Source: Monosporascus cannonballus (lineage: Eukaryota; Ascomycota; Sordariomycetes; Xylariales). Taken from it: a stretch of DNA of 64,000 nucleotides. The notes under the pieces were generated by a model. It made no database searches. It was not told the origin of the DNA and was given only the letters and a program-made list of their open reading frames with translations. The stretch covers positions 66,899-130,898 of the forward strand of contig QJNS01000035.1 of assembly GCA_004154925.1 (NCBI GenBank), in the 5' to 3' direction. The position numbers were made by a program, and so were the translations under genes. Positions 11,524 through 30,102 of the stretch are shown in pieces. How positions within the stretch are numbered: the first letter of the stretch is position 1; every line of letters starts with the position of its first letter.

Positions 11524-13635
11524 ATTATGTGTGTTCGTTGTATCCGGTTGAATGGCTGCCCCTCGAGGCTGATGCTACAAAGGGATGATGGATGGCCCTT
11601 CTGCGGGGTAGGTTGCGCCGGCAGTATATCGTTCTAGAACGGCAAGTTTGATATTATGGTTTACTAGTTGGTATGATCTAGGCTGTTATTGAGCAGTGGA
11701 AAGAATCGGGTCTAATATTACTTGAGACAATCACATATAGTGCTGAATATGGATGACAGTCGGAAGTGCGTATATAACTAGAGGCTTATTAAGAAACTTC
11801 TATGGTTATCGATGGTGGGGTTTGGATGGCGGGGCCTATCCGCTGCTTATCAGGCCTATACAGTACCCCAACGTAAGTGCAATAAGAACTAGCCGAGGCA
11901 CGCCCTAAGTTAGACTTTCAAGGGTTCAAGGGGTACGCTGCTATTAATAGACCAACCTCTTTCATAGGGGATTTTTGACTACACGCATCCGCGAGGCTCA
12001 ATATCTTCACGGAGAATTCGCCTCGCCGAACTATGAATCTCAACCTTATTTGATGCACTACTAATAAGAATATTCCTTCACCAGAAAGCACGGCCGCTAG
12101 GCCGATGGCTTTTATCTCCTCTAGCCCAATACTCTATCTGTATGGCAAAATCTAAGGGAGCGGCTCCAAGATCAGAAGGTTTAGCTACCTTTTGTTGCCT
12201 ACAGCTATCTCGGCCTGGGCGGTAGAGCGAATGGTACGTCTCTCGTGATAGTCACTACACGGTACTAATGCTATTGTTATTAGAATACGTAGTGTCGGTT
12301 AAATGACCCTAGCGCGGGCTGGTCCGCGCGGCGCAGAGTATTATACTCCGCTGTTGTCCCACTATGAGCCTGTGGTGTGGTCTTTCACTGCACCGCACTG
12401 ATAAGTTTATTATGTACGTACTAAGCCAATAGCTCCAGATCTCCCCAAGAGACGGTCCTTCCCTGGCATGCAACTTCGGATCCTGAAAGTTGTGAGCTGT
12501 CCGCATCATAGGCGCATGGCGGTTGTCAGCCAGGCAAGAGAAAGAGGGGGGGGATCCTTTTCAGGAGAGACGCTCCTGGGGACGGTTATTTTATATCCGC
12601 CGCAGCAATATAGCCTCGCATTCTGTTGGATCTATTAGGCAATAAAGCATGATTATATACACATGCTAATAGGTAGCCAACGGAGCCGACCATTCGGAAG
12701 CATTGATACCACCATTCTCGGTGCTTCTTAAGTTTGTTCGACAGTCTACAGATACGTGTCCAGTTGTAATCGGTGTTGGCGGGTATCTACACGTGGCTCT
12801 TAGGCGTCGCTAGCAAAGATTGACCACCAGTAGTCCAACTGATTGCTGGCATGCTGGTCGATTTTTCATGATACTCGCCTAATAGCCTAGTAGTGCTTAT
12901 CGCTCCACGCGTCTCTAGAGAGGGCTCTCCCTGAGTTGGAAGCCGTGAGTGGAGCAGTCTCATTGTTCCTATAATGCAACTCGGACTGCGTGCGCACACC
13001 GCACCCAGACATCTTCCACGACCTCCGTATAAAAACGATGATCGAAACCACCTCAGTCCCCTGGAACAATATCATTTAGGAGCATATATATATTGTACGT
13101 TATTAAGGCAAAGCCGGAACCCCGGCATGGAAATTCTTTCTCAGTGCACAGTAGGTTTTACATGAAGCTTCTATGACTGTAAACCTCCTTTCCTGCTCAG
13201 ATCAGCGTACAGAGGAACGGTATACCTCGTCTTAGGGAGTGAGCGCTTGGGCATGTTAAGGGGAAAACTTTAAATCCATTAGGTGTGGCAACCCTACTAC
13301 GGAAGGCTATTCTATGATTAGAAACAACGCTCTGGTTAGAGGACGTTCTACTCCGAGGAGAAAACGTATTTATTCAAGTCCCGGCCCAAAAATTTCTTGC
13401 TCTCTTCTCTTCTTACAACTCAACCCCGGTGCTCCCAACTCTCGCTCTCCATCGCTCGCTACTGATTCCCTTTATCATCATATCTATTCCTCTAGATATC
13501 TCTCTCGTTTTCATCCAGATATCACACTCGCTGGTGTTCCCATTTGTTTCCGAGCCCCCCCGGGCCTCTAAGTACCCAGCAACGTTCATATCTCACTTTC
13601 GCCACCTTTCCCAGTCTCTCATCCACGTAGTCGCC
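11524..13635. promoter_or_regulatory. Divergent intergenic region (about 2.1 kb)
   Basis: It separates the 5' ends of FMN1 (-) and the MazF-like gene (+). No gene recognised. The final 250 bases (about 13390-13635) are strongly pyrimidine-rich on the plus strand (CTCTTCTCTTCTT, CTCTCGTTTTC), a usual feature of fungal core promoters and transcription starts. The remainder is unremarkable; short open frames have no motif. Confidence 0.4.
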
Positions 13636-14874
13636 ATGGCTTCGACTTCGAGACCAGCCACAGTCTCTCACAAGAAGGGCCAGCGGCACGAGTGGAAAGA
13701 GGGCGAGATTGCATATTTGAAACCTGCCTCCGAGTTCAAGGCCGAGGATTATAGGTCCTGTATCGAGTCCGAAGAGGTAGAAGAGGGAGCAACGGGGCAC
13801 CCCGTCATCGTCCTCAAGCGGCGTTCGCCCGCCGCGACCCACGTGATCGTCACGCCGGTCACGGCTTTCTGTTCCGGCCCGGAGAATCACTTCCTGCCAC
13901 CTGTAAGTAATATTCGTGATTATTTCCTCGCCCTCCCCTTATTTCGTGGTCCAGGAGCGCCGTGTTCCACACAGACACTCCCAGGGGCTTGTAGCTCCCG
14001 AGACGTGCCTTGTGACCCCCACCCACTCCCTTGGTTAACTAGAACTAAACAATTACTAACTCCTGATGTGCAGTGGAAGCAGCCCTGGCACGCCAGAAAG
14101 GCTCGCGATGACTTCCGCGCGTTCCTCGGCTGCGCACGGCCGACGGACAAGCGCGCCCACCTCCTGCTGGAGGCTGGCAGCATGCCCAAACCTAAGACCA
14201 GCTGGGTCTACGTCCAGAGCGTGTACCTGGTCCCCGTCTGGACGCTCCGGTTCTTCACCAAGGTCGACGTCGTTCTCCGCAGTAAGTACTTTTCCCAGTC
14301 GTTCCTCTCCCCCTTTCCCCTAGTTCACAGACCCAAATGTCCAAGAGAGGCCTGTAGGAGTCTCTGATTCCCAAGACACATCTTGTAGACCCCCTCCGCT
14401 ACTCATGTTATCAGCTAGAACAAACGATTACTGACACCTTGCATTACAGTGAAGCAGGAGAGTTTCGCCGACCTGCGGTCGCACATCTACGAGAGGAGCC
14501 CAACAAAAATCGGCCGCCTCCTCAACGACCCGAGGCTCAGGCTCGAGTTCAAGAGGCCTGCTGCTGCTGCTGCCGTCAATGCCGCACAGCCCGTGTCCGC
14601 GCGTCGGCAGACCTGGGGGTTCCTCGACCAACAGGACCGTCCGAGGTCTGCTGCATCCACGTCTTCCGGCGCTGTGTCTTCTGTTCCCTCCCTGGCGTCA
14701 TCCGGTGCGTCGACAGCGCCCTCGAGCAGACCGTCAACGCCGGCTTCCTCGCCGCCTGGCAGCCCGGTGTTGAAGGCTTCGACGCCCGCCGTCCCCTACA
14801 AGAGCGCGCCCATCCCCGCGACACCGCTGTACAGCAGTGTTGTCAAGGGCAGAGCAATCCGAGCCGTCGGTTAG
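13636..14874 (+). CDS. Hypothetical protein with possible MazF/PemK-like fold
   Basis: Function unknown. Exons are 13636-13902, 14074-14281 and 14450-14874, giving 299 residues. The start ATG has an ideal context (GCCATGG). Both introns have GTAAGT donors, CAG acceptors and ACTAAC/ACTGAC-like branch sites. Residues 17-160 show the strand order of MazF/PemK proteins: EWKEGEIAYLKP (opening strand), GHPVIVLKRR, HVIVTPVTAF, then a basic linker and KTSWVYVQSVYLVPVWTLRFF, which resembles the SYV..dQ.rtv..erL segment of that fold. Residues after about 200 are Ala/Ser/Pro-rich and probably disordered. The fold call is an inference from pattern only. I see no partner antitoxin gene, and a housekeeping or nucleic-acid-binding role is just as possible. 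The existence of the gene is more certain than its nature. Both introns belong to the repeat family described separately. Confidence 0.8.
13903..14073 (+). repeat. Introner-like intron, copy 1
   Basis: 171-bp intron 1 of the MazF-like gene (phase 0). It shares blocks along its length with copies 2 and 3, notably TAGCTCCCGAGAC..CTTGTGACCCCC, CTAGAAC..AACAATTACTAACTCC and TG.GCAG at the 3' end. It is a multiple of three and has no stop in the reading frame of the gene, so retention would insert 57 residues. Confidence 0.75.
14282..14449 (+). repeat. Introner-like intron, copy 2
   Basis: 168-bp intron 2 of the same gene (phase 1). It shares TTCCCCTAGTTCA with copy 3 and CTAGAACAAACGATTACTGAC with the 3' part of copy 1. 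Its middle (TGATTCCCAAGACACATCTTGTAGACC) lines up with TAGCTCCCGAGACGTGCCTTGTGACC of copy 1. Confidence 0.75.
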
Positions 14875-15915
14875 CGGGCGATCGAGCTCTGAAGATGGAA
14901 GGTCGTCGCGCGATGACAGACTGCGTAGAAGGATATTCGAATTAAGATGTGGATGCTTCCGAGCCTACCTGCAACGAGCGATGACTCATTCAGATATCCG
15001 GGATGCTAGTCCTCCGCTCACGATGCGTCACGTTGTATATATTACGAGAAAGGATATTTAGTATCCGAGGTGGAATCGTGGGCGTGGAGGACATAGGAGC
15101 TTTTGAGACGGCGGAGTTTTATGGGCGTTTATTTGGTGTGGATTTAAATCGTACACACTTGGATATGCGTCACATCGAACGCCTTTGCCGTGTCAATTGC
15201 TTAGCGGGCCTTGGATCTAGTAGCTCAAACATGAGAATAGAATACGAAGCTTTGGCCTGTGATCACATTTAACTATTTTAGCGCGTGATGATAAAACCCC
15301 TGATTATTCCCATTTTATTAAACGAAGGTCCCGGCAGCGATAAGAGACACCGATATACATATGCTACCCCTTAACCGAACAATCCATGTTAATAAACCGT
15401 TAGTCCTGCTATTATATAGTCGACAGTAAGCCCTAGATGTCCAATAGATCCTGGCTATACCAACTCGTTGTGTATTTTGAAGTTCAGGGGCAGTTGGAGT
15501 CGATATGCCGAACGGCTATTCGTTCCGTGATTCTCAGGGGCATGACATACTATTGACCAAGTTCCCTTCCGATCATTGAAGGTTTCAGAATAATGCACCA
15601 CTTATTGAATCGCAGCAGGACCCGATCACCGATATTGAAAATCTGGACGTGTCACCGGAAGCCTCTGTGTCACACTCTCGGTTACCTGTCACAGCACCCA
15701 CCGTCGAAACGATCCACCCTTTTACGCGGGCAACCTCACGGCATTACCAGCGGAAATCACATCTGAAGTCCAAGCAGACAGGGACTAGTGGCTAGAAATC
15801 AAGAGCACTAGGGCAGTGACTCGAGAGCGGCGAGGTCTAGGATCCGGCCACTATTGAGGATCCCGAAGGCTTTGGCGCATTGCTCTCGAGCAATCTTCAG
15901 CATATAATTCTTGTC
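14875..15915. other. Spacer, nothing recognised
   Basis: 3' flank of the MazF-like gene followed by moderately AT-rich DNA. No coding motif or repeat boundary seen. It may be part of the decayed retroelement that begins just downstream. Confidence 0.4.
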
Positions 15916-16462
15916 TCAATGCCTCATCCATGCCGGACAATCGATTTTGTTCATTTCCGGCGGTTCTTGCTGGACTCGTTCCCATTGCCAGAAGAATAAC
16001 TCATTCGCTCTGGCGGCCGACCACGCCATCTCTGCGCCGATAAGGGCGTTGATGAACTTAGACGTCTTGCAGGATAGGACAAGTATGGCACTGTGTTCCG
16101 GTTTAGAAAAGGGAAGTCCCACGATGAAATCGAGGCACATCGTGGCTAACATTGGCGTCTTGTCGGCCTCTGGACACCGTTCACCGCCAAGTCAAAGCAG
16201 TCGAAGACAAACCCGATAATCCAGAGCGACATGCCACCTCCGACATTCGCGATTTCTAGCCAGTGATCGTCGTCTGCACCTTGTACGTATGTCGTGGATC
16301 GTAGTGTCGTTTGACGATCATTGCCGCCAGTGACAAGCCACCGTGGGCCTCGACTAGTGCCAGCAGACGCGTCTGGTACTGTGTATGATGTAGACGACGG
16401 CGGAGAGGCCTAAAACGATCAAGAATTGTCCATTCTAGAGACCCTAAAAAAGGTTGAGACAT
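15916..16462 (-). pseudogene. Ty3/Gypsy integrase remnant
   Basis: The minus-strand frame at 15916-16152 reads TMCLDFIVGLPFSK, then SAILVLSCKTSKFINAL and WSAA, matching the beginning of the retroviral-type integrase catalytic core (DFIVGLP..AILVL..L.K). Upstream on the same strand, 16256-16462 contains LVEAHGGLSLAAMIVKRHYDP, resembling the HHCC region (H.GH.G..KT...I...YYWP). The frame is interrupted between the two and the catalytic residues after the first Asp are missing. It is an old fragment without visible LTRs, only mildly AT-enriched compared with the elements after 31.7 kb. Confidence 0.6.
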
Positions 16463-16760
16463 TTATCGGCATAAAGGCATACATGAAGGGCGGCGTGCCA
16501 ATGTACGCCGCTCTAATACAGCCCCTTGAGGATCGAAAGACGCAATTGTTCGTCCGGAGAGATCTATCCTTTCGATTGACGGGTGAAGGAAATCGAAAGG
16601 ATTGGGCCAACACATGGCCTTTGCTTACCCTAGAGCAAAAGACCGAGCGTCGTTTGAAGCTGTCAAGGACGCCTTATCGAAGCATGTTCTCCATGCCCAA
16701 AGTGGAATAGGAAGTCTGGTTCGAAATGCTACTCCTATCTATGTTGCTAAGCCGGTGGGA
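16426..16760 (+). pseudogene. Ty3/Gypsy reverse transcriptase/RNase H remnant
   Basis: Plus-strand frame with LKKVETFIGIKAYMKGGVPMYAALIQPLEDRKTQL, corresponding to the stretch after the RT active site (YLG..GY.R..IP.YA....PL..RKT.L). After a frameshift near 16630 the sequence continues as DRASFEAVKDALSKHVLH, the beginning of the RNase H domain. Two frames and a nearby stop show it is dead. It meets the integrase remnant on the opposite strand at about 16430, so the two pieces are not in their original arrangement. Confidence 0.6.
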
Positions 16761-17507
16761 GTAGAGTATAGTAATTGATGAACCTGACTAGACAGTTTTA
16801 TGGCATTATTGTTTCGTGGTTGCTTTTTGGATGTGACGACCTTGTGATATCCGGAACCCAAAGGATGGTTATGGAGAAGATGGAAAGGGGTAAAGAGAGC
16901 AACGGGATCCAGGAAATAAAGTTTAGCTAAACAGGGTTGCAGGAGCGGTGGCGTGAACAAAGGTGTCTCGTAGTAAGCAGCCATTTCCTTGGTACCTCCA
17001 CCAACCTTCCTTCCCTTTTAACTTCTTCAGAATGGTTCGCGCCTTGAATGTTTTCTGTCGTAGTGATTTCCCATTTTGACCCCTTCCCCTTAATAAACCC
17101 CCACTGTTACGGCCAATGCCTGTGGCACTGGCGTTCCTGTCAATAAGTTTGCCCCTAAAGAGACCGACGCTTAGTTTTACGTCTTGTGTATAATTGATGC
17201 CCGCGCAGGAATTGGGACTCTGTACGAAACGCAACTACATTCACAACAGCCATCACAACCAGGCCCCACGGACGGGTTGGTACAGGCGAGATAGGGCTCT
17301 AACCAGGCACAAGGCTCCGGGGATGAAATGGGAAACGAGGTCTGAAACTAGTTTTATTATGATAACAGCCTCTTCAGCCGTGAACTCGAAAGCTCACAAA
17401 TATCATGCCAGCCATTGGATATTAAGTATTAAAAGGATATATGCAGTCCGAGATGTCGACTCCCCCTATCCCGTAAGCGCAAACCTAGAGACATCAGAGA
17501 CTCTTGT
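16761..17507. other. Spacer downstream of retroelement debris
   Basis: No recognisable coding sequence. Probably partly decayed retroelement and partly the 3' flank of the minus-strand GPI-protein gene. Confidence 0.4.
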
Positions 17508-18341
17508 CTAGAGGAACAGAACCGCGGCGGCGACCACGCCAGCGGCGATCTTGCCATCAGGGGTAAATCGGCCACCGGCACCCGGGAGAACGGTAAAAGG
17601 GGGTGGTGTGGTGGTAGCGGAGCCCGGGGTGGTCGATACCGTTTCGTCGGTCTCGGTCGGGTCCGACGAGGTGTTGCCCGCGGTGTCGCCCGTGGTGGTG
17701 GGCTCAGGGCCCGAGGTGGGGAAGATAGGGAAATCGTCGTCGTTGTCCGTCGTCGTGGTCTCGCTGGTGGTGGTGGTAGTGCTGTCACCTGCGCTCGTGG
17801 GTGAGAAGCCGCCCCCCGTCGTCGTGGCCCTAGGTGTAGTGGTGAAGATGAAGTCCTCCGTCGTGCTAGTGGGAAAGGGATCATCCGGAAAATCCCCCGG
17901 ATCGTCGCTGCAGGATTCGCCGGCGGGGCAGCACTGGTTGTTCGCGAGGCAGGTCCCGAAATCAGGGCAGTACGACCCGCCGGAGTCGCAGCAGGTGCCG
18001 GTGGAGGGCATGCATAGGCTGCCGCATTCGACTTGCCCAACCTCGCAGGTCGCGGGGCCGGCGTCGCCGGTGCAGAGTTCGCCGTCCGGGCAGCATCCCG
18101 TCGCCGTGCAGTAGTAGCCGTCGTAACAGTAGGTGCTGTCGCCGCTGTAGCAGCAGTTATCGCCGAGTGGCATGCAGCCCTCCTCGCAGACCTCTTTGCC
18201 GGCCCCGCACGTGGCAAGCACGTTGGTCAGCTTGCTGTAACCCGGAAGGTGCAGGTCGTCGGGGCGCGCTCGCGCCATCTCCCTCCCTTGGGCGGCCGCC
18301 GCCAGGAGGATGAGACCGAAGGCTTGGGCTTGAACCTGCAT
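17508..18341 (-). CDS. Secreted Cys-rich GPI-anchored protein
   Basis: 277 residues, single exon. Residues 1-20 form a signal peptide (MQVQAQAFGLILLAAAAQGR). Residues about 40-150 are cysteine-rich with repeated CC and CxxG patterns (DNCCYSGDSTYCYDGYYC, TGCCPDGELC, GTCCDSGGSYCPDFGTC, NQCCPAGESC), suggesting several small disulfide-bonded modules. Residues about 155-260 are Ser/Thr/Pro-rich with runs of Thr, a probable O-glycosylated stalk. The C-terminus is a short hydrophobic tail (KIAAGVVAAAVLFL) after a small-residue region, as expected for GPI attachment. The likely location is plasma membrane or wall. No enzyme motif is visible. Similar granulin-like or EGF-like Cys modules occur in many fungal surface proteins of unknown role. 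Confidence 0.85.
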   Translation of the reverse strand: MQVQAQAFGLILLAAAAQGREMARARPDDLHLPGYSKLTNVLATCGAGKEVCEEGCMPLGDNCCYSGDSTYCYDGYYCTATGCCPDGELCTGDAGPATCEVGQVECGSLCMPSTGTCCDSGGSYCPDFGTCLANNQCCPAGESCSDDPGDFPDDPFPTSTTEDFIFTTTPRATTTGGGFSPTSAGDSTTTTTSETTTTDNDDDFPIFPTSGPEPTTTGDTAGNTSSDPTETDETVSTTPGSATTTPPPFTVLPGAGGRFTPDGKIAAGVVAAAVLFL

Positions 18342-20879
18342 TGCGTGTCTTGTTACGGGGGTAACGCCTGGTAAGGGTGATATGGTCTAAATGACCTTTT
18401 ATGCCAATCGAACGAGCGTGGAGAATTGGCCTTGGGCACAGGAGTGAGGCAGCACTTGCTGACTCTGTGCGTAGCTAGCCAGGCGCGAAGCTCTTCTCTT
18501 ATACCAAGAGCAGGACTCCATTTAGACGGTAGAGGGACCCCATGGGGCAGCGGACGCACTCGAGAAATGGCCATAGGCCCTACGGGGCTTCTGGGATCGA
18601 GTCGTGTCCCTCCTGCTCGGGTATCTAGCCAAGGCTTACTTGGCTAGGGTCTGGGCTGCTTTTATCCCTGGCCGCATAACTAATTTAGCGAAGCTGAAAT
18701 ATCACATCGTGGATGTCTTGGCAAGTTGGAGACTATTCGGCTGAATTCGAGCCCGTATTACCAGACAGCATCTGGAAGGCCTTCTCTAACTCCTGAAACA
18801 CCTGCCACCTTCCCTCTCGAGTATGAAGTCCATCATAAGTGGTAGAGCTTCTGTATGAACGCTTGTCAAACCTGTTCAGCGCACCGCGTCCGTCTTGAGT
18901 CAATGCCGGTTTTACCGCAACGAGATATGGCCAGTGATACCGGGCGGTTAGTCTTGGGCTCTCACACATGAAAAACCCATGCTGAATCTCCAACCAGCTT
19001 GCACCACGGCAGACACTGGGATCCATAACCTAATCGGGTTACCAAAACTAGCGTGATGTGGTCCTTGCCCTATATTGGGTGCATTTTCGGGAGCGCCTCT
19101 TCCCGGAGATAGGTACGCGATCCGATATCAAGAGAAACCAACCGTGTTCCCATGAATATGGAAGCAGGTAGCGGTAACCCAATATATAGCGATGAATGTT
19201 CGATTCCAAGCTCATGGGAACTATGTGTAGCTGAGATCCTTTAGTCTCGGAGAGTTGATGTCGCGGTCGACAGCGCACTCGTGAAGGGCAGCCAAAATGA
19301 AGCTGTCCTGGTATTGTTTGGGAACAATGCCAAGGACAGCTGAAAAGGAACCCTGTGGTTTGAAGGGGAGCTACTAGACTTTAATGCCCAGTAAGGCGGC
19401 AAAGACCCCATACAATTGGAGCGGGCTGATGACTCTAACTGTTTCTTAGGTAAGAGAGTGACGAGACTACTGCCGCATTCGGGGTGCATCCTGCATCCCC
19501 TATCTCGGTCAGAGGAACGCAAGGAGCATAATGTTCGCATTATTTTTAGAGTCACACAATAGTGGCGATGAGTCAAAAGTCACGCGGCGCTGCTGGTGTC
19601 TGGCCAAGCAATTAGCCCTGCCATATCTGGTCATGGAGATGAAAGGAAAGGGAGGTGGCCGCTGCTGCGAGGTTCCCTTGTTGTTGCCATCACGAAGGAT
19701 AGATCCTTATTTCGACGCCGCCTCAAGCCCCCATTGTTTCTGGGCTGAAAACGGACGGGATCGGTGGAAAAGCTTAAATGAATCCCAGCCACAGGTATGG
19801 GGCTGGGGCAGATTTTGGAAATCCATGAGCTCCGTAGATTCCCAAACCCTTGATATCAGTTCTCCGAGCCTGCACGATGTAACGTACTTATGTACCGGGC
19901 TCATCCAGATCCAACCGTAGGTCGATGCTCAAGTAGGGGTTCAAGTGCAATTTATATTAGCTTTGTTGCCTATTTCTCGGTATTTTGAACTCCTGGTGTA
20001 GTAGCATCTTTTCCCTTCTGCAAAGATAATCGATGTCTTGGAGCAATTCCTCTGCCGGCAGGGAGACCTGTGCGCAATTTGCCTACAGACATAGGTATGC
20101 CAACCTACCCATACAACTACACCTACTCCGTATGCTACATAATCGCGTGCTCATGAGTTAGCTCTTCAATGGGTCCTGAATTTCCATCGGTAATAATTGA
20201 GCTGTGCGCCAACCGAAGAGTATTGAGTGGCTGCTATTCAACAGTTCAACATCTTCGAGATGCATCAGCAGCGCTTACCAGAATAGGGAAACGAGGATTT
20301 TGGGCGATTGAGTCGCCTAACCTATGCCACGACCGTCTACTACCTAATAACGACAGTATGGCGGTTTGGAGATTTAGCCTCTTAGCAGGAAGAGGACCTT
20401 TATTTGGTTGTGACTCTGGATGAGCGCTTCATGAAGGCTTTCCAGTTTTGCTATGCCTGATAAATCTCTAGAAGACCCCGGCTTCCTGTAGTAGCCAATA
20501 AGATAGGCAAGGCTACCGTCACAATGCGCCTATCAATCACCTGTCGATCAATACTGAGCTTTAGACCCAACCACGTCGGGGTCTACCTAAAGGTGAATTT
20601 GCGAATGGTAAGATAGGTCTCCCAGGAAAGCTCTTGGTATCTGTCCCTAAGCACCAGTAAGTATTCCAAAAAGGGATTCAACTGGAATACTTCGTAGTGA
20701 TTGAGGGAGCACTCTCTAAGCGCAGTCTCGGCGAAAGTGGAGCTCCCTGACTAAGTTAGGCACTTACCTTGAGACATTGACTTACGTGCGAAACAAACCC
20801 CACGGTTTCACAAATTTTACTTACCTCATAAGTCGTCCGGAGCAGAGAGTATTGGGGAATGGAATAGGGTATACAGAAG
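18342..20879. promoter_or_regulatory. Divergent spacer between GPI-protein and histidine kinase genes
   Basis: About 2.5 kb containing both promoters. Short open frames here have no motif and no consistent codon bias. I see no tRNA, no long repeat and no clear core promoter element. Confidence 0.4.
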
Positions 20880-20924
20880 GTGAAGTTGAGGTTGTCCAAC
20901 AAATCACCTTGCACGCCATTCGAT

Positions 20925-23900
20925 ATGGTCGAATCTGTCCCGCTGGTAAGGCTCGCCCGCCGGACCTCTCGGGAAGGAATCCCCCTTGACCCGGATCAGC
21001 GAAATTCGCGCAAAGAGTTCGATACGCTCAGTATCACCGAGGTCCTGGACCAGGACCCTCGCCCTATCTTTGCTATTGATCTGGACCCTGATGAGAGCAT
21101 CACCATCGGTTCCAAGAGGGTCTCTCCCATATTTTGTAATTCTGCGCTCCGACTCCACGAGCGATTGCTGGAGGCCGTTGTTGGCAGTGCTTCCGATCCC
21201 TCACAAGCCGCCTACGAAGAGTTCAGCACGTGGGTCACAGGAACCACTCAGTTCGACGATTCCTGGGATGTCTTCCCGAATCCTTTCCTGTTCTCTGATC
21301 TGCTCTGGACTGGCAGTACTGTCAGAAAACGATGGAGGTTAATCTCTGGCAACCTCTGGAGCGGCGGAATTCCCGCTCGTGATCTGTCAATGGTTTCCGG
21401 CGGGGCCGTTCCTGGAGATCGGTCCTGCGAAAAGCAAAGTCAAAAGCCCTCCCAGACGCGAAGACGCTCTATCTCTCCGACGGGGATTAGCTCGAACACG
21501 GGAAGGACGACTCTTGTATCCTCGGAACCGGCTCAACCACCTCGGTTATCGGGCACAAGCTCGAATGCCACAAGCTGTTCCTCGGAAAGCAACAAACTGA
21601 CCCTTTCCACTCCGGAAAAAGCTGTCGCGGATTGGACAGTGCCTAAACCTCAAGGAGTGTTATCGCCACATATCGCCTTCGCCAGGACAGTCCGCTGGGA
21701 AAATACTCCCCTAGGACCTATGAAAATGTGGTCGAGGGAATTCCGTCAGACCGTAAATCTCGTGATGTCGAACCCTCGTAAGTGGTTCTTCGAATCTTTG
21801 TATCCGTATCGGCTTCCCTCATGGCCTACCGCCTTGCTTATTGCCTTCTCCGCATTGCAGCTTTCTGGGCGCCCTTGGAAGTCAGCACGTCGGTCAAACG
21901 GGTGAATACTAACATCGAGTCGCAGATCCCGCCGCTCTATTCTGGGGTAGCGACTTGACAATGTTATATAACGAAGCTTACGCTGTGGAGGTGGCCGGCC
22001 GAAAACACCCGAACCTCATGGGCACAGGATTCTCCGGCCCCTTCTGTAAGCAGTTTCTGGAGTTGCTTCTTCTCCGTTATTCCCCTAGTTCAGGAGTGCA
22101 AATTCTCCAATGGAGACGCTGAGGAGTCGATAGCTCCCGAAACCTGTCTTATAACACCCGATTATTCGCCTAATTAGCCAGGACGACAATTGCTGACTCC
22201 GAATGTTGCAGCGGAGCTGTGGGATTCCGTTAAGGATATCTTCGCTGAGTGCGCGCGGACGGGTATCAGTATCCGAAAGGATGATGATTATTTGCCAATC
22301 GAGCGCCGTGGATTCCTCGAGGAGACGTTCTACTCATGGTCGTGGACGCCTTTGTATGGGGGAACCAGCCAGATCCTAGGGTTTTATAACGCCCCCTTTG
22401 AGGCAACGCAGTCCGTACTAAGGCAGCGGAGGATGCACACCATTCATAAGATAGGGGAAAACCTCTCACGTGCACAGACGAAAAAGCACTTCTGGAAGTT
22501 GCTACTCGAAGGTCTTGAACACAACCACTTCGATGTGCCTTTTGCTCTTCTGTACTCTGTGGGAGAGAACGAAGACGCGGGTCGGTCTTCTGCTTCTTCC
22601 GAGAGCACAAGCACAATATCGACGCGGACGTGTTTTCTTGAAGGCTCCATCGCGGTCCCCGATGGTCATGTTGCGGCTCCTACCCGGATTGATTTGAGCA
22701 GGAGCCCCGAGGGATTCATACCCTCCTTTCGGGAGGCGATGCGCACGAGAGAACCGACTCTGCTGCATACTAGAAATGGGTCGCTTCCCGAGGAACTTCT
22801 GAAGGGAATCGCCTTCCGTGGTTTCGGAGACCCGTGCCGGCAAGCCATCATATTTCCGGTGCGACCTACAAATAGCGAATCTGTCTTGGCGTTCCTTTTG
22901 ATCGGTGTCAACCCCCGCCGCCCATACGACGATGGATATAAGGCATTCACGGCGATGCTGAATAGGCAGTTAGCTACTTCCTTGGCGTCGTATATGCTGT
23001 ACGAAGACGAGGTCCGCCGCAGTCATGATGTAGCCGAGACTGCAGCACTCGAACAACAGCAGCTTTCGCAGCAATTAGCTCTGCAAACTAGCCGTTTGAA
23101 GCGAATGACAGAACTATCGCCCCTCGGGATGTTCCTCCTCAGTCCGGAGGGCATCTTAAGAGAAGGTAACGATCGCTACTTCGAAGTGACTGGCCACCCG
23201 AGGGGGGAGAGCTTCGCAATGTCCTGGATGGAGCAAGTTGAAGATACCAGCAAGAAAACGATGGAAGAGGGGTGGCATCAGCTGATCGTGGATAACATTC
23301 CGTGGACTGGCGAGGTTCAGCTCAAGAGATTAACTGTCCAGCCCACTGGTCTGGATGGTGAAGCCATCGACTATTGGGTGCTCATCTCTGCACAACCGGA
23401 GTTCGCAGAGGACGGTTCCGTGCGTGCTATAATGGGATCGATTACGGACATTTCACATCTGAAATGGGCTCAAGGCTTGCAGAATCGTAGGCTTCAGGAG
23501 GCGGAGGAAACAAGAAGGCACCAGAACGAGTTTATCGATATTACTTCACATGAGATGAGGAACCCTCTAAGTGCCATCCTTCAATGTGCGGACGACATCT
23601 TGTCGACTTTGAAGGAGCACCAGTCGAAAGATCAGGCGCCACCCCCAGAAGCCGTGGAAAGTTGCATTGAGGCAGCCCGGACCATCTCCTTATGCGTGCA
23701 GTTCCAAAAATCCATCGTGGATGACATCCTTACCGTCTCGAAGCTTGACTCCAATCTCCTAGCACTCGCTCCTACGATAGCACAGCCGACCGACGTTGTA
23801 AGCCGCGTCGTGCGAATGTTCGAGCCCGAGCTGCAAGCTAAAGATATCGAAATGACCTGCGAGGTGGAACCAACTTTTACGACACTGGCGGTCGATTGGA

Positions 23901-24979
23901 TGACGCTAGATCCGAGTCGTGTACTTCAGATCCTCATTAACCTTGTTACGAATGCTATCAAATTCACAGCGAGTTCTGCCGAACGGAAGATCACTTTGTC
24001 CACGGGCGTCTCCCGCGATCCGCCGCTATTCCTTGACACCTCGGGTTTCCGATACATTCCGAGGAGGATCCCCAACGCCGGCGTGCTTACGGGTGATGGC
24101 TGGGGAGAGGGTGAGCCACTTTATGTTCGGTTCCAGGTAGAGGACACCGGCTGTGGTCTTACGTCGGACGAGGTCAAGGTCTTGTTTAAACGATTCTCCC
24201 AAGCCTCTCCGCGGACGCACGCCCAATACGGCGGCAGCGGTCTTGGTCTATTCATTTCTCGTCAGCTGGCAGAACTGCACGGCGGTCAGATCGGGGTCTC
24301 ATCCGAGGCCGGGCGTGGCAGCACTTTCGGGTTCTTCATCCAGGCCAGGAGGTCGGCGCCGCCAGACAGCGCGACGACCGGTGATGCCTTCGCGATCGAG
24401 CAGGATCTCGTAGGAGACGACACCCTCTCCCAGCCCATAGCGCCTCAGCGGCAAGATCTGGCGTCGCCGGGCCCCGCATCGGACCTGGTTGCGACCAAAG
24501 CCGTCGCCAGGAAAGAGGCGCAGAAATTCGACCGGCGCGCGCTCGAGGTCCTCGTCGTCGAGGACAACCTCGTGAACCAGAACGTCCTCGTCCGACAGCT
24601 CAAAAAGGTTGGCATGGGCGTCAGCGTCGCCAACGACGGGCTCGAGGCGCTCGACTTTCTCGAGGGGACGGCGTTCTGCCGCGGCGAGGGCGTCGGGCGC
24701 CCGCTCTCGGTCGTCCTAATGGACCTCGAGATGCCCAACATGGACGGGCTCACGTGCGTGCGCGAGATCCGAGCCATGCAGGCGCGCGGCGCCATCGTCG
24801 GCGGCGCCCACGTTCCCGTCATCGCCGTCACGGCCAACGTGCGCGAGGAGCAAATCGCCGCGGCCCGGAGGAGCGGCATGGACGACGTCGTCTCCAAGCC
24901 CTTCCGCATCCCCGACCTCATAGCCAAGATTGAGTCCCTGCTCGTGGGGCTCGGTCTGGCTTCCCCGGCAGAGACGTGA
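20925..24979 (+). CDS. Hybrid histidine kinase (PAS, HisKA, HATPase_c, REC)
   Basis: Sensor kinase of a fungal phosphorelay: it autophosphorylates a His, passes phosphate to its own receiver, then to a YPD1-type transfer protein. Exons are 20925-21777, 21926-22045 and 22212-24979, giving 1,246 residues. Intron 1 (148 bp) has the branch site ACTAAC; intron 2 (166 bp) is introner-like. Visible domains: a Ser/Thr-rich N-terminus with FARTVRWENTPLGP; PAS from about 285 (HPAALFWGSDLTMLYNEAY); a GAF-like region about 385-555; a coiled segment; a second PAS about 620-735; HisKA with H771 in TSHEMRNPLSAI; HATPase with N901 in NLVTNAIKF, DTGCGL (969-974) and GGSGLGLFIS; REC with the ED pair in VVVEDN, acceptor D1162 in LMDLEMPNMDG, and Lys in VSKPF. 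All catalytic residues are present. An in-frame ATG at 20880 would add 15 residues; 20925 gives a more typical start. The ligand is unknown. Confidence 0.92.
22046..22211 (+). repeat. Introner-like intron, copy 3
   Basis: 166-bp second intron of the histidine kinase gene (phase 1, GTAAGC..GCAG). It shares ATTCCCCTAGTTCAGGAG with copies 1 and 2, GATAGCTCCCGAAACCTGTC with copy 1 and GACAATTGCTGACTCCGAATG with both. The other intron of this gene (21778-21925) does not show these blocks. Confidence 0.75.
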
Positions 24980-26509: not shown

Positions 26510-29500
26510 TTAGATGTAGTACATGGTATCCTTGAGTTTCGGGTGGATGCGGGCGCCCATGAGGCGCGCGCGGCTGTCGCTCGAGACGGACTGGTTGTCG
26601 TCGGCGCGCTCGAAGAGGTCGGCCATGTAGACGCGCTGGCGCGTGCACAGGATGTCAGCGTAGTAGGCGGGTGGGCAGATGCTGACGGCCTTGGTTGCGC
26701 GGCCGAACAGGTAGCACATCTCGTGCGTCACCCGCTCCAGCGCGTTGGCCGCGTCCGCCCCAACCATACTGCGGAAGATCTCGTCTAAGAGAACCGTGTA
26801 GTGCGCCGGGCGTGCAGTTCCTGTGGGCGGTGAGAAATTATGCTAGTCAATGTACATCCGTAAGAAAAGGAGGGTGGGCTCTCGCAACTGGGCCGAACGG
26901 AAAGAAAGGGGGGGAGGCTTACCCTGGAGCGCTTGGTGCGCCGTTAGAAAGAAATCCCAGATGTGGGCTTGCGTGACGCCGCGGTCCACCACGGTGCCGT
27001 TGGTGATGTTGCGCGAGTTCGTCATATGGTTCTTGTCAGTAGGGTAGAAGCGTGTCTGGTGGCGCTTGACCGACACGACCAAGGAGATCTTAGGCGACGC
27101 CTTGGCCGGATACGTGCTCTTGCAGGCGGCCCGCATGTAGGGGAGCTCCTTCTGCAGGACCTGTTCGAACTGGCCCTCGGAGACGCCGTCTCGGAATATG
27201 ATGATGTTCTCCGGGAGACGGTTCTGGTTGTGTCGCTGCCAGAGCCTGAGCCTCTCGACGAACGCATCCTCGAGGCTCTTGTCGAGCATTTCGACCCTAC
27301 CGGCTTGCGCCCATGCTGAGGCTGGCCACTGTCCGAGGTCCTTATCTATGCTCGCCACGAGTCCGACCAGACTGGGCAAGTTGTCCGCGTTGCCGGAAAG
27401 GTTCGTCGGGTGCGTCACGTCGTAACCGACGACCATGGTCTTACCGTCTTTGATAATACTGATGTCGTCTCCCAACTTATGGTTCGTCCCGCCCATCTTG
27501 AGGTTAACCTTGAGGGCGACGTTGGCGAAGTATTGGGGTGAGCCTCCGTTCTTAATCAGATTCCTGCGCACCACACAGACCGTAGGATAGCCGAACTCAA
27601 CGTCTCCCAGTGTCTTGACCACGTTATAAATGGGTTTATCCTGTTTCGGCAGCACAACGAAGACAAAGTCCGGGTTTTGCGCATTAAGCCCCTGGAACGC
27701 CTGTCTGAGGTTGCTAATGAACTGTCCTCTAGTTGAGACATTAATGCCCCTAGCGTTTAGAGACCTAGACTCGATAGCGACGCCCATGCTTTGCATGAAA
27801 GCCACCCATTTTCCCACGACGTTGACGACCTCATCATCATCGCGCGGGTCGATGTGGATGAAGGACCACTTAGTAATCTTCCTCCCAGACTTAACCACGC
27901 GGACGTTTCGCATATTCCACGAGCCCTGGTTGACAGGGGCTTCCTGTTTCCCGGAGTACATGACCCTCGGCTGGACGAGCTCGCGGCCTTTCACAGTCAA
28001 CAGCTGCTTGTCCACCGATATGCCAAATTCATTCTAGATACTGTAAGCATTCACACCGGCTGAAATTAGCCAGGACAAGTCACTCACAAGCTTCGGGTTT
28101 GCGTCAAGCTGCAGACACATGCGACCGATGGTGGCCAGCGACGTCGCGTTCGCAAAAGGTGATCGACAAGCGGAAAGAATCATTTGTGCCGTCTCGGCCG
28201 GATTTGTCTTGCGCCGAAGCGGTTGGCCTGGAATAACTTCAACCAACTCGGCAGGCATGTAAACGGGTCTCGTCGGTGACCCGACATTGATGACTGGGAG
28301 GTTTCGGTCCACTTGCATTCCGTATCCTATCGACCTGAGTCAGAATGTGTTACGAGTTCGCGGCGTAATGACGTACTCTTCTCGAAGTAATCGGCAACGC
28401 TGATGTAGGCATCCGCCGGGAGGCCAGCCGGGGCCGGTGCTCTCAAATAGAATTGCACCTCGTGAGGTCTAGCGCCCGAATATGCAATCTTAGGTTTCGG
28501 CTCACCCGAAGAACCGTCATATTTAGTAGCTAGTCCAGTAATGGTTTTCTCCCCTGTTCGGGCCACCCCGGATGGTTTTTTACCCTTCTTCCCAGATGTG
28601 CCCTTCTCGGGTAAGTATGTAACTCGCGCTCGGAGCTTGGACAAGGATTTGTGCAAGTTCTGGAGGGAACCGCTATCCCTGAGATCGTAGTCCTTCATCA
28701 AGTCGCTCACTCGGCCGGCAGAGCGGAAGACTCCGTGAGTCACGTTGGCATTGAGAAGTAGCCGGCCGGTCGCTGGACGGGCACTTTGAAAATAGCCACG
28801 AATGAGTGTGTTGAAGTCGATCGGACCGAGGCTGAACTTTTGGTCGTCGCGGTCCAAGGGGAAATACCGGCTTCGACCGATGGAAGCGACGGCGGCGCTT
28901 GCTCGAGCGCTATGGCCAATAATAACGCTAACGGCATCAACTGCAGACGTAAACTTGGGAAACGAGGTGCCGCCGGTGGGATCCCGCATGGTACGGAGGT
29001 AATTTAACAGCTGAGACATGTCGATAAACGTAGGCCCGTTGAACTTAACATTATACTGGTCGTCCTTGTTCTCGATGGTGTAGTTGACAGTAACCATATT
29101 GTCTTTGGGAAGAGAAAGCGGTTTAAGCGAGACCACCTGGCTCTTGAACTCCGAGACTAAGGGCACCCCTTTGCCGATCCGCTCAAGGGCCACGTTGACG
29201 ATGTAATGTAGCTTTCTACCTTTGGCATCTCGTGGCTGGGCTTTCGTGCCTTCCTTCTTGACGGGTGTGACCTCAATTGCATATTGGTAAAGCTCATTCG
29301 CAGGGACATCAAGTTTGAAATAATTGGCCCAGAGGATGACTTCCTTCCCATTGGTGCCAAACGCGGGGCGACAGGGGAAGTAGCTGTCGGATGACGGTTC
29401 GTTGCTCTTGGTTGCCGAGACCTTTAGCTTCGACATCTTGCCTGTAACAGCAAGCGTTCCAAGATGTTCTTTCAGGATCTTATCTTCAAGGTCCGTGATT

Positions 29501-29872
29501 GCTTTCTCAGGGGCCGGTACGGTCGCACCCTGTCTAAGAGTCTTATCAGTTGAGCTGTAAGACACCAGTGGAGATGGCAACATACCCGAAAACGTCAGAC
29601 TCGCCGACGAACTTTCCGCCACCGAAACCACCGCCACGGCCTCCGCGTCCACCACGGAAGTCACCTCCGCGCCCCCCACGATAGTCACCTCCGCCTCGTC
29701 CGCCCCGGTATTCACCTCCACCGCGTCCGCCCCGAAAGTCGCCGCCACCCCGAGGTCCGGAGAACGCGCTACCACCGCGGCCGCCCTGATAATCACCGCC
29801 ACCACGCCCACCGCGGGGTCCGCCGCGGTCACCACGCCCTCCGCGGGATTGACCTCGTCCTCGGTCTGCCAT
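26510..29872 (-). CDS. Argonaute (QDE-2/AGO-like) small-RNA effector
   Basis: Binds small RNAs and cleaves or silences complementary transcripts (quelling/RNAi). Exons, 5' to 3' on the minus strand: 29613-29872, 28377-29554, 28088-28326, 26923-28033, 26510-26820; 1,032 residues. The N-terminal 85 residues are RGG/GGDYRGG repeats, as in QDE-2. Then come the N domain, L1 with YFQSARPATGRLLLNANVTHGVF, PAZ (about 380-490), MID and PIWI. Slicer residues by alignment to human AGO2 are D764 (GYDVTHP), E807 (RVEML), D841 (FRDGVSEGQF) and H936 (TARPAHY): a complete DEDH set. It ends in MYYI, as Argonautes do. Introns 2 and 3 use TAG acceptors (50 and 54 bp); the frames force this. Intron 1 is 58 bp if GTTCGT is the donor; the alternative GTATGT donor would leave only 31 bp, so the exon 1 end is the least certain point. 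It probably acts against transposons like those next door. Confidence 0.93.
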
Positions 29873-30102
29873 TCCGCGATCGATTCCGTTACGAGCCAGG
29901 CCCAAGCATTTAAAGCTGTGGCAGAGCTCGTTGCTGATTAAGAAAATACCGGGGAAATATGCAGAGAACGGCGACAAGGAAGCTATTGGGCGAGGTGAGT
30001 AGCAGAACTAAATGAGGCCAGCAACGAAAGAAAGGGGCCGGCGGCAAAGGGGAGGAACGTGAGCAAGGATGGAGTCTGAAGCTGCAGCATGTATATATGC
30101 GC

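Follow-up and report, generated by a model that had tools for sequence, protein, structure and literature searches.

What makes introns of different genes resemble one another from end to end, and how did they come to lie where they do? This question is raised by a stretch of 64,000 nucleotides from contig QJNS01000035.1 of the fungus Monosporascus cannonballus (hereafter the window), in which three introns on the plus strand share sequence: intron A (positions 13903..14073, 171 nt), intron B (14282..14449, 168 nt) and intron C (22046..22211, 166 nt). Monosporascus belongs to the Xylariales, within the Sordariomycetes. The initial annotation assigned the three introns to a family of introner-like elements, and we consider it nearly certain that one introner family gave rise to all three, which are now in a decayed state. 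Sequence comparisons further point, with moderate probability for the statement as a whole, to a family that has complete splice signals of its own, is inserted seamlessly and in sense orientation at YN|TG (the bar marks the insertion point), and spreads via an RNA intermediate.

Global alignments of the three intron pairs give 108 identities in 163 aligned columns for one pair and 110 in 162 for each of the others. Relative to 1000 dinucleotide shuffles per pair, with the splice ends held fixed, the z scores are 6.1, 8.2 and 9.0, and the observed global score is reached by no shuffle. The local score is less clear, as the best shuffle equals one pair (33 versus 33) and falls one point under another (35 versus 36). 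Two motifs had been quoted as common to all three introns, and each proves to be shared by two copies only: TTCCCCTAGTTCA is exact in B and C, and the middle motif, TAGCTCCCGA.AC.TGYCTT, fits A and C. All three introns begin with GTAAGT or GTAAGC and end in CAG. Scanning the window with a profile recovers A, B and C only; the next match has E=3 and lies on the opposite strand.

The family extends far beyond the window, and further copies by the tens are what the initial annotation had named as support. The assembly comprises 88.8 Mb in 618 contigs and contains 61 full-length copies, A, B and C included, among 67 profile matches at E<=1e-3 (the profile was run on DNA fetched from the genome, and matches above 1e-3 were dropped). 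Six partial copies (C200, C423, C173:18608, C286:61360, C29 and C145) stand outside the 61-copy counts, and two of the 61 were kept although their automatically set ends depart from GT...AG (C173:18537 at the donor, C246 at the acceptor). A consensus search produced 38 matches at E<=0.01, of which six are new and near full length, and these represent 6 additional copies. Because 32 of the 38 had already been recovered, simple recapture predicts roughly 80 copies in the detectable range. When single copies serve as queries, copy C gives 13 matches at E<=10, itself included, a younger-type copy gives 16 at E<=0.1, and copy A finds only itself at E<=1e-3.

With up to 3 mismatches, the 3'-end pattern occurs at 61 sites versus none for a reversed control; the 5'-end pattern has 31 sites versus 6 in the control, and the middle pattern 9 versus 0. 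By tally, the 3'-pattern sites are 45 full-length copies, 5 partial copies and 11 sites that the profile does not match at 1e-3, so that a few may be chance. That these sites and the full-length copies share the number 61 is a coincidence. All genome search counts are lower bounds. Judged by sequence similarity, the family numbers several dozen introns at the least, in unrelated genes.

Two copies lie about 800 bases apart on contig C286 (60400-61360) and resemble the A/B pair, although one of the two matches in part only. One copy on contig C173 is a partial tandem, and a copy on contig C145 (136289-136341) is cropped to 53 nt, with the two near-terminal arms and little between them. The window, which was chosen for its three copies, holds them within 8.3 kb (13903-22211), whereas 67 copies spread over 88.8 Mb would amount to about 0.05 per 64 kb. 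Viral carriage was considered and rejected: one exact 20-mer is present in an IMG/VR contig, where the profile matches just 22 bases, and it is taken as chance.

Copies have a median length of 166 nt, in agreement with the 160 to 175 bp originally proposed. Of the 61 donors, 42 read GTAAGC and 9 read GTAAGT; 38 of the acceptors are CAG and 22 are TAG. Conservation is highest at the donor, at the acceptor and at the branch-point motif CTRAC, which is the top internal column set. Putative branch points on the plus strand are CTAAC at 14056..14060 in copy A, assigned by fungal consensus, and CTGAC at 14431..14435 in copy B and at 22193..22197 in copy C. Copies are on average 79% identical to the consensus, and pairwise identity averages 60% with a maximum of 88.7%. 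By these divergences, the family is old and its copies are decayed. A young clade of 13 copies, with a mean identity of 81%, stands out in the tree (FastTree support 0.989), which points to two or more waves of insertion.

The hosts of the window copies differ. Copies A and B interrupt a gene that runs from start to stop codon at 13636..14874 on the plus strand and encodes a protein of 299 amino acids. When spliced at both introns, this protein is identical (100%, full length) to the public protein DL766_006609 of Monosporascus sp. MC13-8B, which agrees with splicing at A and at B. Strain MC13-8B has been assigned to M. cannonballus and was isolated from melon (PMC7407469). Copy C lies in a hybrid histidine kinase gene (plus strand, approximately 20868..24979, two long open frames), in which a Pfam scan matched HATPase_c and response regulator domains, with HisKA under the cut-off. 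Thus, of the two unrelated hosts named by the initial annotation, the histidine kinase is confirmed by its domains, whereas no Pfam family matches the protein called MazF-like at E<=1e-3.

As judged by codon usage and domain matches, most copies are placed in sense orientation within coding sequence. If the frame is taken from the longest open span, some hosts are misread, and their translations look out of frame (for example C99, C15, C585 and C255:37924); therefore, orientation and phase were redone by codon usage. The training set was 16 hosts in which a Pfam domain crosses the junction, and the tested copy was left out each time. The sense frame is preferred for 59 of 61 copies and the antisense for two, with weak scores, in line with the shared orientation that the initial annotation had named as support. 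When the flanks are scored separately, the same frame continues across the junction in 53/61. On open frames alone, 15 open codons flank the junction on each side in the sense direction in 60/61 copies. If the limit is raised to 30 codons per side, 57/61 remain open at the true boundary; moving it by three nucleotides leaves 54-55, and moving it by 1 or 2 nt leaves 38-46. Retention of the introner would create an in-frame stop in 55/61. By codon usage, insertion is in phase 1 in 40/59 copies.

Host identity was assessed from 20 of the 61 joined flanks, which were picked as promising. In 16 of these 20, a Pfam domain reaches across the junction; the families are varied, and among the hosts are laccase, TOR, ATP-citrate lyase and RNase T2. 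Two hosts both belong to the enoyl-CoA hydratase superfamily, yet their junctions are at different profile positions. Hosts among the scanned flanks are thus not paralogous, as is expected of introners. All 61 flanks have a GC content of at least 50%; none is below 40%, compared with 80 of 160 bins of the window.

Insertion appears to leave no trace beside the element. Pairwise identity is 0.67-0.68 at the element ends and drops to 0.27 in the exon flanks past two bases. The best PDB match is gapless at the junction for laccase, TOR, ATP-citrate lyase (whose alignment has a six-residue gap some ten residues upstream), enoyl-CoA isomerase and RNase T2; for Dak1, the best match has one extra residue and the second-best is gapless. 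In the window, junction A (CCT|TGG, phase 0) is gapless in 18/19 relatives and junction B (GCA|TGA, phase 1) in 17/19. Junction C (TCT|CGG, phase 1) is gapless within six residues in 118/118 covering relatives among the best 120 of 769 kinase relatives. Of the nine junctions compared in all, eight thus show neither gain nor loss of a residue relative to the best relative, with Dak1 as the exception. Among the same 120 of 769, 58 of 59 environmental-only kinase entries run through site C, which suggests, at the protein level only, that the site is empty in other fungi.

Target-site duplications (TSDs) were sought at the junction, and with k=2 none is present in 61 copies versus 2.2 for shuffles. 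Offset matches near the junction are frequent because of the conserved splice letters and the preferred T. Were a target base duplicated, splicing that keeps the frame would require G at -1 or +1; G occupies -1 in 12/61 copies and +1 in 1/61. This speaks against cut-and-paste transposition with duplication.

The choice of insertion site is not random, a feature that adds to the initial annotation. T is found at +1 in 54/61 copies (p 3e-32), G at +2 in 47/61 (p 2e-13) and C at -2 in 40/61 (p 4e-8); a pyrimidine is at -2 in 51/61 and A at -1 in 24/61. The target information lies mostly 3' of the insertion point, and the search patterns contained no flank bases. The next exon starts with TG in 46/61 introners, but in only 5/47 ordinary-intron candidates; these controls were predicted, not annotated, and their strict settings gave 11 (none with TG) and their relaxed settings 47 (5 with TG) and 34 (2 with TG). 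T at +1 is common to the young clade (12/13) and the other copies (42/48). The commonest site is CA|TG (12/61), itself palindromic. Sequence carried by the element was rejected as the source of the TG, because relatives hold the residue without a gap at the TG junctions compared (laccase, the second match of Dak1, A in 18/19 and B in 17/19).

Codon context accounts for part of the excess of phase 1. TG copies are distributed over phases 0, 1 and 2 as 12/30/4 by longest frame, and the frequencies of TG in the flanks predict 23/45/31% (p 0.003). By codon usage, the distribution is 13/31/2.

Near its two ends, the family consensus is imperfectly complementary to itself. The consensus is predicted to fold with a near-terminal stem of 15 pairs, in which positions 5-20 pair with 149-164 (z -3.17; 1 of 200 shuffles is as good). 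On the plus strand of copy C, these arms correspond to 22050..22065 and 22194..22209. When the 5' end is compared with the reverse complement of the 3' end, 12/15 consensus bases match (CAATTTCTGGAGTTA versus CAACATCTGGAGTCA). This terminal complementarity has p 0.0006 relative to shuffled ends and p 0.0007 when the splice motifs are fixed.

These features could be joined in one mechanism. The comparisons show that copies have their own donor, branch point and acceptor, and that they were inserted between the N and the TG of the preferred target without duplicating target bases. The mobile form is presumably the excised intron RNA, with its ends held by the near-terminal stem. Such an RNA might re-enter a gene in either of two ways: it is reverse-spliced into another RNA that is then reverse-transcribed, or a nick in the gene primes its reverse transcription. 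In the latter version, a cut in the bottom (non-coding) strand would leave a CA-3' end that becomes the TG of the exon, which would explain why most target information is on the 3' side. Inserted copies would then decay into ordinary-looking introns. An RNA intermediate is favored because the ends of the element are the splice sites, placement is in sense within coding sequence, and there is no duplication. The more specific proposal, that Monosporascus has repeatedly gained introns by a sequence-specific RNA-mediated pathway in which stem-closed intron RNA is integrated at YN|TG, most simply from a CA-3' nick, is a tentative one that we hold to be possible rather than probable.

Several observations weigh against spread through RNA at YN|TG. 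The evidence for splicing is indirect and consists of the maintained frame, protein continuity and the public protein match. Reverse splicing is not known to call for TG on the 3' side of the insertion. In copy C, the next exon starts with CG instead of TG, and of the six later copies, read by eye, three have TG, one TA and one GG, and one has an ambiguous acceptor. On open frames alone, the antisense direction is also open in 45/61 copies, longer in 9 and equal in 5. The consensus folds better than shuffles, in line with the hairpins named as support by the initial annotation, but copy C, the single copy folded, has a z score of only -1.66 and does not form the near-terminal stem. Moreover, stem positions within the 61 copies show no covariation beyond shuffles (82.9% of stem cells paired versus 82.9%). 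Because pairing equals that of shuffles, we assign the stem to the founder sequence and see no sign of its maintenance after insertion. Finally, inverted near-terminal repeats are also expected of a DNA transposon.

Such a transposon is the rival explanation that survives best, although we regard it as unlikely. The introner would be a non-autonomous element like a miniature inverted-repeat transposable element, with terminal inverted repeats (TIRs) CA...TG and blunt integration free of duplication, and insertions outside sense exons would have been lost by selection or missed. The complementary consensus ends and the palindromic commonest site agree with this explanation, and introners with TIRs and without TSDs are illustrated in Acanthoeca (PMC9860276, Fig. 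2D legend). Against it, G is seldom found at the positions where a duplicated base would demand it. None of the 61 full-length copies is in AT-rich DNA, though copies in such DNA may have been destroyed by repeat-induced point mutation (RIP). The full-length copies measure 201 nt at most; this leaves room for a longer element, as 11 pattern sites lack a profile match at 1e-3 and only a few hundred bases upstream of them were read. Helitrons insert at A|T, start with TC and end with CTRR. A Helitron was rejected, since A is at -1 in only 24/61 copies, the donor is GTAAGC or GTAAGT in 51/61, and the acceptor is CAG or TAG in 60/61.

Less probable still is that intact intron RNA was ligated by chance into double-strand breaks, as Fekete and colleagues propose for stwintrons of Xylariales (PMC8469720, PMC12403724). 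Those introns are from the same order and likewise have complementary near-terminal arms, seamless junctions and no TSD. However, ligation into breaks predicts random sites, and the authors report no bias of exon or phase, whereas in Monosporascus the T at +1 and phase 1 dominate. The YN|TG bias thus speaks against chance ligation. A conserved intronic RNA (a small nucleolar RNA or similar), gene duplication or chance, all without mobility, is very improbable as an explanation: conserved folds can be functional, and the consensus fold is better than nearly all shuffles, but no Rfam match exists at E<=1 over positions 13600-22400, hosts are varied, flanks are unlike, mean pairwise identity is 60%, conservation is highest at the splice signals, and chance and gene duplication are refuted as sources of the shared sequence.

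The setting of the three introns in the window includes two further features. Adjoining the histidine kinase gene, on the minus strand, is an Argonaute gene (26846-29937) with Piwi, Mid, linker and N domains. From about 32000 to 64000, the window is an AT-rich block with a GC content of 17-27%. This half has a RIP-like dinucleotide skew, with TpA/ApT of 1.10 and (CpA+TpG)/(ApC+GpT) of 0.58, compared with 0.82 and 1.09 in the GC-rich half.

The origin of new introns is unsettled, and ascomycete introners are an outlier: they are described as showing no hallmarks of DNA transposition (PMC9860276) or, for the stwintrons of Xylariales, as entering at random sites. If insertion through RNA at YN|TG is correct, Monosporascus would have a fungal introner machinery with a readable target code. 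Seamless insertion without duplication, together with a strong target preference in younger and older copies, is what an enzymatic step predicts, and not random break repair. Ten Monosporascus genomes have been published, three of them from M. cannonballus strains (PMC7407469), which permits a direct comparison of sites with and without the intron.

Among the papers listed by our literature searches, none links Monosporascus to introners, although the families of Gozashti et al. may include it. The name is absent from the main texts of PMC9860276 and PMC12403724, and the main text of the genus paper (PMC7407469) does not mention introns. By a broad definition, introners are at least four alike introns whose similarity extends to near both splice sites and not beyond (PMC9860276); the Monosporascus family has 61 such copies, with similarity that ends at the flanks. 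Like introners at large in that survey, its members are end-to-end similar introns in genes. However, ascomycete introner families are stated there to have neither TIRs nor TSDs (Gozashti et al. 2022), whereas the Monosporascus consensus has imperfect near-terminal inverted repeats. Introners of the Huff type, DNA transposons with TSDs (PMC12403724, PMC9860276), are likewise short and intron-creating, and to their inverted ends the imperfect near-terminal repeats may correspond, but the Monosporascus family has no TSD (0/61, k=2) and no co-opted splice site.

The initial annotation likened the three introns to the introner-like elements (ILEs) of Dothideomycetes. Those of Fulvia fulva, Zymoseptoria tritici and Dothistroma (Collemare et al. 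2015, PMC4457414) are, like ours, repeated canonical introns in unrelated genes that decay to ordinary introns. The likeness holds as far as an introner family is concerned. However, the comparison is by description and with another class of fungi, as the host here is of the Sordariomycetes and Xylariales, and near-identical copies, which would indicate current activity, are absent from the Monosporascus family (at most 88.7% pairwise identity). The main text of PMC4457414 mentions no insertion site, motif, target or secondary structure.

The closest comparison within the order is with the sister [D1,2] stwintrons and type-2 cropped introns of Hypoxylaceae and Xylariaceae (Fekete et al. 2021, 2025; PMC8469720, PMC12403724). 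Both groups combine complementary near-terminal arms, G-U pairs included, with seamless insertion and no TSD, and the 53-nt copy on contig C145 recalls the cropped introns of Hypoxylon. However, a stwintron is a nested pair, whereas each Monosporascus element is a single canonical intron. Its arms, compared by eye as a consensus with the text of the paper, are unlike NTIRE-10 (GUAUAAAAAC) and its partner. The [D1,2] donor is split after G1 (G|GU...), and G is at -1 in just 12/61 Monosporascus copies. Stwintron sites are reported to be random and unbiased, whereas the Monosporascus family is inserted before T in 54/61 copies and has G at +2 in 47/61.

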